Assembly (NCBI RefSeq): GCF_030499575.1
Contig: NZ_JASTLC010000001.1
Coordinates: 7,650,001 to 7,714,000 of the forward strand
Direction: 5' to 3'
DNA length: 64,000 nucleotides
Source of the DNA: Streptomyces sp. DG2A-72
GTDB taxonomy: Bacteria > Actinomycetota > Actinomycetes > Streptomycetales > Streptomycetaceae
The notes below the pieces were generated by a model. It saw only the letters and a list, made by a program, of their open reading frames with translations. It searched no databases and was not told the DNA's origin. The position numbers were made by a program, and so were the translations under genes. How positions within the stretch are numbered: the stretch's first letter is position 1; each line of letters opens with the position of its first letter. This document shows positions 14,735 to 46,682 of the stretch, piece after piece.

Positions 14735-14790
14735 TCAGGGCGCTGCCGGGGCCGGCTGTCAGACCGTTGCTGGAAGTCTTGACAAGCTGA

Positions 14791-14804
14791 TTGGTCTGGA
14801 CCAA
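14791..14804. promoter_or_regulatory. DasR-type dre operator in a chitinase promoter
   Basis: TTGGTCTGGACCAA is a perfect palindrome and matches the TGGTCTAGACCA consensus of DasR, the GntR-family N-acetylglucosamine-responsive repressor of Streptomyces chitin genes. A TTGACA -35-like box is at 14779-14784 and the operator occupies the spacer. The start codon of the chitinase remnant is at 14852. Confidence 0.75.
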
Positions 14805-14851
14805 ATTGTGCGGCGCTCCACCCTCCAATTCCCCCATGCCCGGAGGTCTTT

Positions 14852-15479
14852 GTGGATCGCGCCAGACCCTTCGTCGGCGCCCTCACGGCCACCGTCCTGG
14901 CCGTGCGGCATCACCGCACTCTCGTCGGCCGCCCGTGCGGCCGACGCGGACCTCGCCCGCCACGGAGGTTTTGAATCCGCCCTCGACGGCTGGACCTGCG
15001 CCTCCGGTACGACGGTCAACTCACCCATACGCACGGGCAGTTCCGCGCTCCAGACAACCCCGGCCGGCAGCGACAACGCCCGGTGCGCGCAGACGGTGAC
15101 CGTGAAACCCGACTCGCAGTACACGCTCTCCGGTTACGTCCGCAGCCCCGTGTGAAACCGGGTCCACCGGCGAACCGGAGTTGTGCCCTCGGGGGCTCCC
15201 GCGTGGGACTCGTAACGTCCCACTCCATGGGCGGCGCCGACTTCCACGTCGCCATGACCGACATGCTGCTCACCGGCTTCCCGGTCGCGGGCAATGGCTA
15301 CGTGGCCCCCGCCGAGGTCGTGAACACCCTCGACGGCCTGACGAAGAAAGAGCAACTGCGGCTCGTACACCACCCACTGCACCTGGCCCGCCCTGCGCGG
15401 CCTGATGACGTGGTCGATCAACTGGGGCCGCTCTGCGAACTGGGAGTTCCAGCGGACCTTCGACGGCTACTTCCGCTGA
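14852..15479 (+). pseudogene. Decayed GH18 chitinase (signal peptide, carbohydrate-binding part and C-terminus remain)
   Basis: Starting at GTG 14852, with GGAGG at 14842-14846, the first 18 codons read like a signal peptide (DRARPFVGALTATVLA). One extra base near 14906 then shifts the frame to GITALSSAARAADADLARHG and GGFESALDGWTC, a carbohydrate-binding domain that ends at a stop at 15153-15155. Another frame gives AMTDMLLTGFPVAGNGYVAP, typical of the GH18 C-terminal half. A further shift restores LRGLMTWSINWGRSANWEF to the TGA at 15477-15479, the classic end of a Streptomyces chitinase. The catalytic DxxDxDxE segment is missing, so a large internal deletion plus at least three frameshifts are present. 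The gene is dead although its operator survives. Its end overlaps the PAP2 gene. Confidence 0.8.
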
Positions 15480-44582: not shown

Positions 44583-45038
44583 TCAACACCACTTGTCGCT
44601 GGGGTTGGCCGTCGTCCAGGAGCAGGCGTCGACCTTGGCGCCGTTCGCCTTGGTCAGGGTCGCCGTGTCGCTGGTGTTGTTCCAGACGTACCAGCTGCGG
44701 TCCTGGTACTTGTTCACCGTGGTGTCCCTGCCGACGCCGGTCTTCACCTTCATCGTCTTGCCCTTCCCGATCCTCACGTTCGGGAAGACGTACCGGTGAT
44801 TGGCCTTGTCCTTCAGGATCCAGCCCTTCAGCGAGATCGCCGCACCGCTGGTGTTCTTGATCTCCACCCACTCGCCGTTGAGGCTGAGGTTGGAGCCGTT
44901 GTCCGAGCCCGGGCTGTCGAACCACACGTGGCGGATGACCACGCCCCCGGCGGCCTGGGCCGGAGTGCTGAGCACGGAGCCGGTGAGGGCCAGGGCACCC
45001 GCGAGTGCGGGCACGGCGAAAGCGGCGCGTATGCGCAT
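44583..45038 (-). CDS. Secreted lamin-tail-domain protein
   Basis: A 151-residue protein starting at ATG 45038 with AGGGGGA upstream. The signal peptide is MRIRAAFAVPALAGALALTG, cleaved near STPAQA. The mature part is a single lamin-tail (LTD) immunoglobulin-like domain: VVIRHVWFDSPGSDNGSNLS, LNGEWVEIKNTSGAAISLKG and WILKDKANHRYVFPN, ending in WTTANPSDKWC with two Cys. LTD proteins in Streptomyces are small secreted or wall-associated proteins of unclear role, perhaps in binding nucleic acids or surface structure. It shares a 187-bp divergent region (45039-45225) with dxr. Confidence 0.85.
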   Translation of the reverse strand: MRIRAAFAVPALAGALALTGSVLSTPAQAAGGVVIRHVWFDSPGSDNGSNLSLNGEWVEIKNTSGAAISLKGWILKDKANHRYVFPNVRIGKGKTMKVKTGVGRDTTVNKYQDRSWYVWNNTSDTATLTKANGAKVDACSWTTANPSDKWC

Positions 45039-45246
45039 GGAGAGATCCCCCTGGATGTCTGCCGATGGCCGGTCGTCTGCCAGCCAGGACAGAAGAGTTA
45101 TCACATGACCTTCACGAGAGCTTCACAAAGGGGGAAGTTGCCCCGATCGCCGCCAAGAACCGATAAGGCACCCTCCCGAGGGATGCCCTGTCCTTCCGCA
45201 CACCCGATACGGCCACAATGGAGGAATGAGCGACAGTCCAGCCCCC

Positions 45247-45449
45247 CAGGGCACGGGCCGGAAGCCCCGTCTGCCCCGCGACGCCATGCACGCACTCTCG
45301 CCGCACCGGGCGCCGACCCAAGTACATCCGGTACGAGGGCCAGTGCCCGGCACGCCGAGAGCACGCACCTGCTGTCGACATCAGCCGCTCCGCGGCGGGC
45401 GCAGGGCCCGCCCTCCGGGCGGACGACGGGGCTTCCGGCCCGCGCCCTG
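45247..45449. mobile_element. MITE-like element inserted in the 5' end of dxr
   Basis: Two 25-bp inverted repeats bound the segment, CAGGGCACGGGCC... at 45247-45271 and its complement at 45425-45449, with one mismatch. Left of it the sequence reads ATG AGC GAC AGT CCA GCC CCC, matching the MSDSPAP start that I recall for Streptomyces Dxr. Right of it [20 protein letters not shown] continues in another frame. Excising 200 bp would restore one frame. No transposase is encoded, so it looks like a non-autonomous element. I cannot define a target-site duplication with confidence. Confidence 0.7.
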
Positions 45450-45476
45450 GCCGACCCACACCTCGTCTACGACCCG

Positions 45477-46682
45477 GTGACGGGCGACGGTCCGAAGGAC
45501 GTGGTCATCCTCGGCTCCACCGGGTCGATCGGCACCCAGGCCATCGACCTCGTACTGCGCAACCCGGACCGGTTCCGGGTCACCGGACTCTCCGCCGCCG
45601 GCGGACGGGTCGCCCTCCTCGCCGAGCAGGCGCACCGGCTGCGCGTCCGCACCGTTGCGGTCGCCCGTGAGGACGTCGTACCGGCGCTGCGCGAGGCCCT
45701 CGCCGCCGCGTACGGCGCGGGGGAGCCGCTCCCCGAGATCCTCGCCGGACCGGATGCGGCCACCCAGCTCGCCGCCTCCGACTGCCACACCGTGCTGAAC
45801 GGCATCACCGGCTCGATCGGCCTCTCCCCGACCCTCGCTGCCCTGGAGGCGGGCCGCACGCTCGCGCTCGCCAACAAGGAGTCGCTCATCGTGGGCGGTC
45901 CGCTGGTCAAGGCGGTCGCCAAGCCCGGCCAGATCATCCCGGTCGACTCCGAGCACGCGGCGCTGTTCCAGGCGCTGGCGTCCGGTTCGCGGGCCGACGT
46001 ACGGAAGCTGGTCGTCACGGCGTCCGGTGGACCCTTCCGCGGCCGCACGAAGGCCGACCTGGACCGGGTGACCGTCGAGGACGCCCTCGCCCACCCCACC
46101 TGGGCGATGGGCCCGGTGATCACGATCAACTCCGCGACCCTGGTCAACAAAGGGCTGGAAGTCATCGAGGCACACCTCCTCTACGACATTCCCTTCGACC
46201 GCATTGAGGTGGTCGTGCATCCCCAGTCGTATGTCCACTCGATGGTTGAGTTCACCGACGGATCCACGATCGCCCAGGCGACGCCCCCCGACATGCGCGG
46301 GCCGATCGCCATCGGCCTCGGCTGGCCGGAACGCGTCCCCGACGCCGCGCCCACGTTCGACTGGAGCACGGCGTCCACCTGGGAGTTCTTCCCGCTCGAC
46401 ACCGACGCGTTTCCGTCGGTCGGACTCGCCCGGCATGTGGGGCAGCTCGCGGGCACGGCCCCGGCGGTGTTCAATGCCGCCAACGAGGAGTGCGTGGAGG
46501 CCTTCCGGGCCGGCGCACTGCCGTTCAACGGGATCATGGAGACTGTGACGCGCGTGGTCGAGGAGCACGGCACACCGCGTACGGGAACTTCACTCACCGT
46601 CGCGGACGTCCTCCAGGCGGAGGCCTGGGCGCGGACCCGGGCGAGCGAACTGGCGGCACAGACGGCGGAGGCCCGTGCATGA
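45477..46682 (+). CDS. dxr: 1-deoxy-D-xylulose 5-phosphate reductoisomerase (5' end disrupted)
   Basis: Second enzyme of the MEP isoprenoid pathway; converts DXP to MEP with NADPH. From GTG 45477 the protein is 401 residues, close to the family length. The NADPH-binding start is [20 protein letters not shown]. It has [15 protein letters not shown], the metal-binding [23 protein letters not shown] and [20 protein letters not shown]. The ancestral start is probably ATG 45226 (MSDSPAP), now separated from the body by a 200-bp insertion that shifts the frame. GTG 45477 has no visible Shine-Dalgarno. An ATG at 45183 is in frame through the insertion and would add 98 unrelated residues. Dxr is expected to be essential unless a second copy exists, so some start must work or the sequence has an error. 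It overlaps the next gene by ATGA. Confidence 0.85.

Follow-up and report, generated by a model that had tools for sequence, protein, structure and literature searches.

Palindromic inserts standing in frame within unrelated proteins are, to our knowledge, mainly a feature of the Rickettsiales. Ogata reportedly described the Rickettsia palindromic elements (RPEs) in 2000 and 2002; their host is a different organism from Streptomyces and has a different base composition. In the excerpted text of one account (PMC10969869), RPEs are short palindromes present in many copies, which lie in frame in unrelated genes and are translated. The Streptomyces element analyzed here resembles that partial description in being a short, multicopy palindrome that is likewise found in frame, and in a translated frame, within unrelated proteins.

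We analyzed a stretch of 64,000 nucleotides from Streptomyces sp. DG2A-72 (G000:C1:7650001-7714000, referred to as the window; the genome, G000, comprises 10.58 Mb in three contigs) and focused on an element lying between the native ATG of dxr at 45226, where the protein starts as MSDSPAP, and the body of Dxr, which starts as LADPHLVYD at 45447. The features of the locus, in window positions, are the following:

45188 to 45219, forward strand: conserved promoter-like block consisting of CTGTCC (45188-45193), 20 nt and CACAAT (45214-45219), from the comparison of dxr starts.
45226 to 45480, forward strand: native dxr ATG and 84-aa out-of-frame leader ORF, from the ORF list and the conserved MSDSPAP-like start.
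45246 to 45450, forward strand: palindromic MITE-like element at its full length, from the arms, fold, family model and sampled copies.
45246 to 45271, forward strand: left terminal inverted repeat, 96% complementary to 45425-45450.
45281 to 45376 (approximate limits), forward strand: hairpin core conserved in the element family, from invariant columns in an alignment of 13 copies from nine genomes.
45425 to 45450, reverse strand: right terminal inverted repeat, 96% complementary to the left repeat.
45447 to 46682, forward strand: dxr body from LADPHLVYD to the stop, intact, from the TIGR00243 score.
45477 to 45480, forward strand: GTGA, in which a GTG in the Dxr frame overlaps the TGA of the 84-aa leader ORF, from the sequence and the ORF list.

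The inverted arms of the element (45246-45280 and 45416-45450) are 35 nt long and 86% complementary, the outer 26 nt reaching 96%. Folded as RNA, the segment 45240-45456 has an energy of –138.1 kcal/mol against a shuffle mean of –105.5 kcal/mol (z = –6.9), and none of 200 shuffles was as stable. A search of positions 44900-45800 against Rfam gave four matches at E up to 1, none of them near the gathering score; these sub-threshold matches were judged to be due to chance, and a structured RNA belonging to a curated Rfam family was rejected. The element begins with CCAG (45246-45249) and finishes with CTGG (45447-45450), which we infer from the rest of the family to be decayed forms of CTAG. The family of the dxr element is short, lacks a transposase, has terminal inverted repeats and is multicopy, as is characteristic of MITEs. 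The arms and the multicopy family bear out the first-pass annotation, which had called the insert a non-autonomous mobile element with terminal inverted repeats. Its native start, MSDSPAP, also stands, a MSDSPAP-like start being conserved across Streptomyces, as does its conserved body from LADPHLVYD, which scores as Dxr above the curated cut-off (TIGR00243, 368.4 bits; cut-off 315.7). The size that it gave for the inserted segment, 203 bp, had to be revised: the distance from the ATG to the LGSTGSIG anchor is 284 nt in the window and 84 nt in most species with an empty site, and the net insertion is thus 200 nt, one base short of a multiple of three.

To describe the family, we built a covariance model from 13 element copies of nine genomes. 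Considering the best 22 scored places per genome, the model had matches in 89 of the 121 genomes (E up to 1e-6) and revealed bursts of equal-scoring copies within genomes. The family combines a conserved hairpin core with palindromic arms that vary from copy to copy but remain paired within each one, both sides having changed in 27 of the 59 consensus pairs. We fetched 40 copies from seven genomes and judged the coding frames beside them by GC content at codon positions. CTAG was present at both ends in 34 of the 40, the coding frame of the neighboring gene entered the element exactly at its TAG stop in 28, and 35 of 37 upstream coding frames shared the TAG-stop phase. The CTAG ends and the phase bias together point to CTAG as a duplicated target, provided mostly by TAG stops that the insertion regenerates. 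The empty sites that were read have no CTAG, showing mostly CTCG at dxr and CTCT or CTGT at the permease gene described below, which implies either that the target has changed since or that the target model is imperfect. With both ends included, the copies measured 168, 169, 179, 180, 181 and 200, so that a net length divisible by three is uncommon among them. None of the 40 sampled copies was found, by the same heuristic, to read through a gene in frame, and in-frame copies are therefore a minority.

The window genome contains an IS5-family insertion sequence at G000:C1:6996985 (940 bp; NF033580, 228 bits vs. 110), whose own ends match each other at 21 of 24 positions and by eye resemble some element arms. 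In four of five genomes, the end pattern used to search for a partner insertion sequence gave fewer hits than its reversed control; one of the 12 places fetched was an IS5-type insertion sequence with similar ends. Two other structures were seen along the way. At G082:C1:159665-159832 and 178015-178182, MITE-like ends of another kind (CTAAGGGCTGTCCCGCAATTCCCG) stand 168 bp apart and apparently belong to a different family, and G080:C1:6779912-6779975 is a 64-bp palindrome made of element arms without the core, perhaps a deletion derivative.

Copies standing in frame within predicted proteins were found in the window genome and beyond it. A second in-frame copy in the window genome lies at G000:C1:3219638-3219824, near the start of a dipeptide-type ABC permease/ATPase gene, with a net length of 183 nt and in the same element frame as at dxr. 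The corresponding site is empty in G138, G113, G236 and G120 (three of the seven loci were not parsed), while the match in G022 spans the permease insert region as well. Two protein searches with the element-encoded stretch, both using one element frame, returned 10 and 43 clusters, of which 45 are different and one is Dxr. The element peptide thus occurs in the same frame in 44 clusters besides Dxr, and in 39 of the 45, a total that includes Dxr, the element stretch is flanked on either side by 30 residues or more. Precomputed domain assignments for the clusters include ABC transporters, an elongation-factor-like GTPase, LuxR regulators, GH13 enzymes, MFS transporters, kinases, an amidase and NRPS. 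Common inheritance of one insertion accounts for some of them, as five GH13 clusters, and likewise two ABC clusters, have identical flanking residues. The same palindrome is nonetheless found in frame in unrelated proteins across the 45 clusters, Dxr among them, which is what defines a protein-coding palindrome. Other copies and empty sites, which the first-pass annotation had thought worth looking for, accordingly both exist, the former across Streptomyces and the latter at dxr and the permease gene.

We scanned 392 Streptomyces genomes with the dxr-frame translation of 45252-45560 and found the element at the same place of dxr in 12 of them, window included. In each of the remaining 11 carriers, the frame of the native ATG stays open across the element and continues into Dxr. 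A contig scan of named genomes, covering the best 80 of 288 loci (14 parsed, one without the anchor), added two carriers among the 14 parsed: Streptomyces sp. AC555_RSS877, in frame, and S. canus V4I20, out of frame owing to a shift inside the element in a C-run. Full-length dxr alleles were in frame in 12 of 14 cases, the exceptions being the window and V4I20, and the ATG-to-anchor distances of the 12 in-frame carriers (261, 279, 285, 288 or 303) are all multiples of three. Shortened remnants were detected in four genomes, G022 (S. blattellae TRM63209), G209, G193 (S. cellulosae NRRL B-2687) and G078, with ATG-to-anchor distances of 87, 105, 105 and 114, all in frame; most species with an empty site read MSDSPAPLADPH. 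The extension is also present in a public Dxr of 476 aa, named S. glaucescens by its source. The first-pass annotation had named a continuous frame through the same insert in related strains as a refuting result, and these relatives provide it: with the two named genomes added, the native frame is open in 12 of 13 other carriers of the same insert. Disruption of dxr by the insertion as such is thus not supported, and the loss of frame in the window strain comes from a further difference of one base. The dxr elements of G258 and G297 contain an apparently nested, smaller second palindrome (CTCCCCCA ... GGGGG), in frame, and the same smaller palindrome is apparently also present in the copies L061, L067 and L084.

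Start sites were compared over 70 dxr loci, of which 66 could be parsed (G141 and G259 lacked the anchor, and in G330 and G367 no ATG was found by the pattern). All 66 have ACAATGG 2-6 nt before the ATG, 61 also have CTGTC, and the spacing is identical in 59. The CTGTCC-N20-CACAAT block presumably serves as a promoter, its spacing of 20 nt being wider than the usual 17, and the dxr message is likely leaderless or nearly so, transcription being predicted to begin at the A of ATG 45226 or close to it. An alternative start at ATG 45183, reading through the element, had been put forward in the first-pass annotation; it precedes the conserved block and we rate it unlikely, GGATGC occurring within 60 nt upstream in just 11 of the 66 starts. 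The same annotation had allowed for a second dxr, which is ruled out for the assembly by a search of the whole of it that gave a single match.

Against G138, its nearest carrier, the element of the window lacks one base, counted modulo three, and the difference falls in C-rich sequence at the left junction. The ORF starting from ATG 45226 runs for 84 aa and ends at TGA 45478-45480, a stop missing in the two nearest relatives, G022 and G138, where the next stop of the shifted frame comes 286 nt past the anchor. GTG 45477 is, as read from the sequence, the earliest possible start codon (ATG, GTG or TTG) downstream of the native one in the Dxr frame; it is residue 2 of the query compared with 29 PDB Dxr sequences, 28 of which have their match starting at residues 3-9. 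If the shift is real, the Dxr of the window strain may be made by a stop and restart at GTGA 45477-45480, which we prefer to a leaderless start at GTG 45477 from a promoter inside the element because the TGA overlaps the GTG. The restart at GTG 45477 proposed in the first-pass annotation is thus a plausible working start, although only on the condition that the frame is truly shifted. The coincidence of stop and start is less rare than it appears, as the shifted frame of four other carriers (G156, G175, G359 and G017) contains a GTGA too, a different one located 27 nt beyond. In the Dxr body, the window has 14 synonymous and 6 nonsynonymous private codon changes and G022 has 11 and 4, which suggests that selection on the window Dxr body continues.

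An alternative source of isoprenoids is encoded in the same genome. G000:C3:182586-190274, on a plasmid-like contig of 212 kb, holds a complete seven-gene mevalonate cluster (mevalonate kinase, diphosphomevalonate decarboxylase, phosphomevalonate kinase, type 2 IDI, HMGR, HMGS and a FabH-like gene), followed by a tatC-like gene; the HMGR scores above the Pfam cut-off and below the NCBIfam one. Takagi is said to have described the mevalonate cluster of Streptomyces sp. CL190 in 2000, which we take the C3 gene order to resemble. At the left end of the chromosome contig, G000:C1:1524-5805 is a broken second copy of part of the C3 region, with HMGR pieces, HMGS-like and FabH-like genes and TatC pieces arranged as on C3, as though the two contigs had exchanged material. 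V4I20, with the other out-of-frame allele, also has HMG-CoA reductase. The enzyme was found in both out-of-frame carriers, in 3 of the 12 in-frame carriers (G175, G236 and AC555_RSS877) and in 42 of the 392 genomes of the genus sample; its link to out-of-frame dxr is suggestive, the hand-computed chance of two of two given 5 of 14 being 10/91. A dxr match is present in 41 of the 42 genomes with HMG-CoA reductase. The one without, G097, has no dxr by DNA or protein and scores as 100% complete, which makes it a candidate for true dxr loss following gain of the mevalonate pathway. No dxr match was found either in G358, which lacks HMG-CoA reductase and is 86% complete. G157 also has HMG-CoA reductase and carries, besides its intact dxr, another dxr-like copy that is split, at G157:C2:8690445-8691613.

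The history of the insertion was assessed from trees and substitution rates. In a tree of 58 element copies (including three of the 10 copies in G054), the 14 dxr copies form one clade with a support of 100/100 relative to the 44 from elsewhere, and the dxr element appears to be one old insertion. The tree of 68 dxr bodies has the carriers scattered among empty sisters; the patchiness requires many losses or allele exchange, and a single insertion followed by repeated loss, or by exchange of alleles through recombination, fits it. A hotspot of dxr into which the element inserted repeatedly in different species would also produce carriers with empty sisters, and the two length forms among close relatives agree with it, but the single clade of dxr copies speaks against independent insertions and we consider them very improbable. 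Once present, the extension could have been kept for a function, as a protein domain, in translation control or as an RNA structure. Such a role would agree with the frame being kept in nearly all full-length alleles (12 of 14) and every remnant (4 of 4), and with the element differing less than the body at synonymous sites. However, among the 11 in-frame carriers of the 392-genome sample, the median dN and dS of the element part were 0.19 and 0.21 (ratio 0.98), against 0.064 and 0.37 (ratio 0.19) for the adjoining 5′ part of the Dxr body. A dN/dS of about 1 indicates that the extension stays in frame but without constraint on its amino acids, which disfavors a functional protein domain; the extension is also cut down or absent in many relatives, and the keeping of the frame is already explained by the essential gene downstream. 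Retention for function in any of these forms is, in our judgment, improbable. Since a further element frame is likewise free of stops in all 11 rows, it is the preserved length, and not the open frame, that is telling. The lower synonymous divergence of the element (0.21 vs. 0.37) could be explained by a recent spread through recombination or by structural constraint.

Both dxr shifts, that of the window relative to G138 and that of V4I20, sit in C-runs, a classical place of long-read errors, and a homopolymer error of sequencing or assembly, with dxr being in frame as in the siblings, is a serious possibility on which our opinion leans only slightly to the negative. We checked the window frames against G022 and G138, with best-hit stretches of 15,559 and 13,873 residues, respectively. 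Seven ORFs were flagged but only one, at about 14905, is a clear frame difference, one is a weak case of 148 aa and five lie upstream of start codons. The difference at about 14905, two bases in the signal-peptide part of a gene relative to G138, adds to the case for error, although that gene also lacks an internal stretch compared with G138 and may be truly decayed. Considered by itself, the gene (14783-15473), with its two-base frame difference and missing internal stretch, is either decayed or an assembly fault. Error does not predict HMG-CoA reductase in both out-of-frame carriers, weak as the figure of 10/91 is, and the ending of the 84-aa shifted ORF in an overlap with GTG 45477 counts for a real event. 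A real shift could also mean that dxr is a new pseudogene or barely expressed, the isoprenoids coming from the mevalonate pathway, for which the complete cluster on C3 and the genome having HMG-CoA reductase and no dxr match provide some grounds. Yet 40 of the 41 other HMG-CoA reductase genomes keep a dxr match without an internal stop (G066 has a partial one in a genome 82% complete), the absence of dxr from G358, where HMG-CoA reductase is absent too, may be an assembly gap, and the Dxr body of the window has no excess of nonsynonymous change. We regard a dead or nearly silent dxr as unlikely.

The reading that we favor, and hold to be highly probable as a whole, joins an old palindromic insert, a translated but dispensable extension, a later one-base difference and a likely stop-restart. 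According to this history, IS5-type transposases using CTAG as the target would have moved the element in trans, and the element would have made a single entry into dxr, directly behind MSDSPAP in the nonconserved leader of the protein, where the codon context was CTA-G. With a net length that is a multiple of three and an open frame, it would have been translated as a dispensable stretch of 59-73 codons added at the N-terminus; in-frame deletion, precise loss or the replacement of alleles would then have shortened or removed it. The native start of the window strain would have been put out of frame afterwards, by a single-base difference close to the left junction; if this shift is real, the likeliest route to a complete Dxr would be termination-reinitiation at GTGA 45477-45480, and a mevalonate pathway on another contig may have made a lowered output of Dxr tolerable.

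Judged from sequence comparison, dxr appears to be a well-sampled example of genus-wide mobile palindromes that can become translated protein inserts. A broader generalization, which we put forward tentatively and with slightly more doubt than confidence, is that CTAG-targeting MITEs insert at TAG stops throughout the genus, become translated inserts in dozens of unrelated proteins, an essential enzyme among them, when the CTA-G phase and a net length divisible by three coincide, and that where mevalonate relieves dxr the frame is released and a stop-restart follows. Being spread across a free-living genus, the family would allow culturable bacteria to be used for testing how such inserts arise, are tolerated and decay. 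The dxr locus offers filled, shortened and empty alleles of one insertion in an expected-essential gene, together with strains having a bypass pathway, and would allow a direct test of when an essential gene may lose its frame. For annotation, the case implies that a frame shift at the start of a gene need not mean a dead gene.

We found no report of such elements in Streptomyces in the literature searched, which covered the subscription literature in part. Like IS5-type MITEs, the element measures about 165-200 bp, encodes no transposase, has terminal inverted repeats with CTAG on the flanks and occurs in bursts of nearly identical copies. It differs from them in having several types of arms around one conserved core. 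The strain with the shifted dxr frame carries its mevalonate genes on a 212-kb contig, a setting that distinguishes its cluster from that of CL190. The differences from RPEs lie in the CTAG at both ends and in most sampled Streptomyces copies being situated at stop codons. The Streptomyces arms, moreover, vary between copies while the core is fixed, and the likeness of the two kinds of palindrome is one of description alone, drawn from the excerpted account of RPEs.
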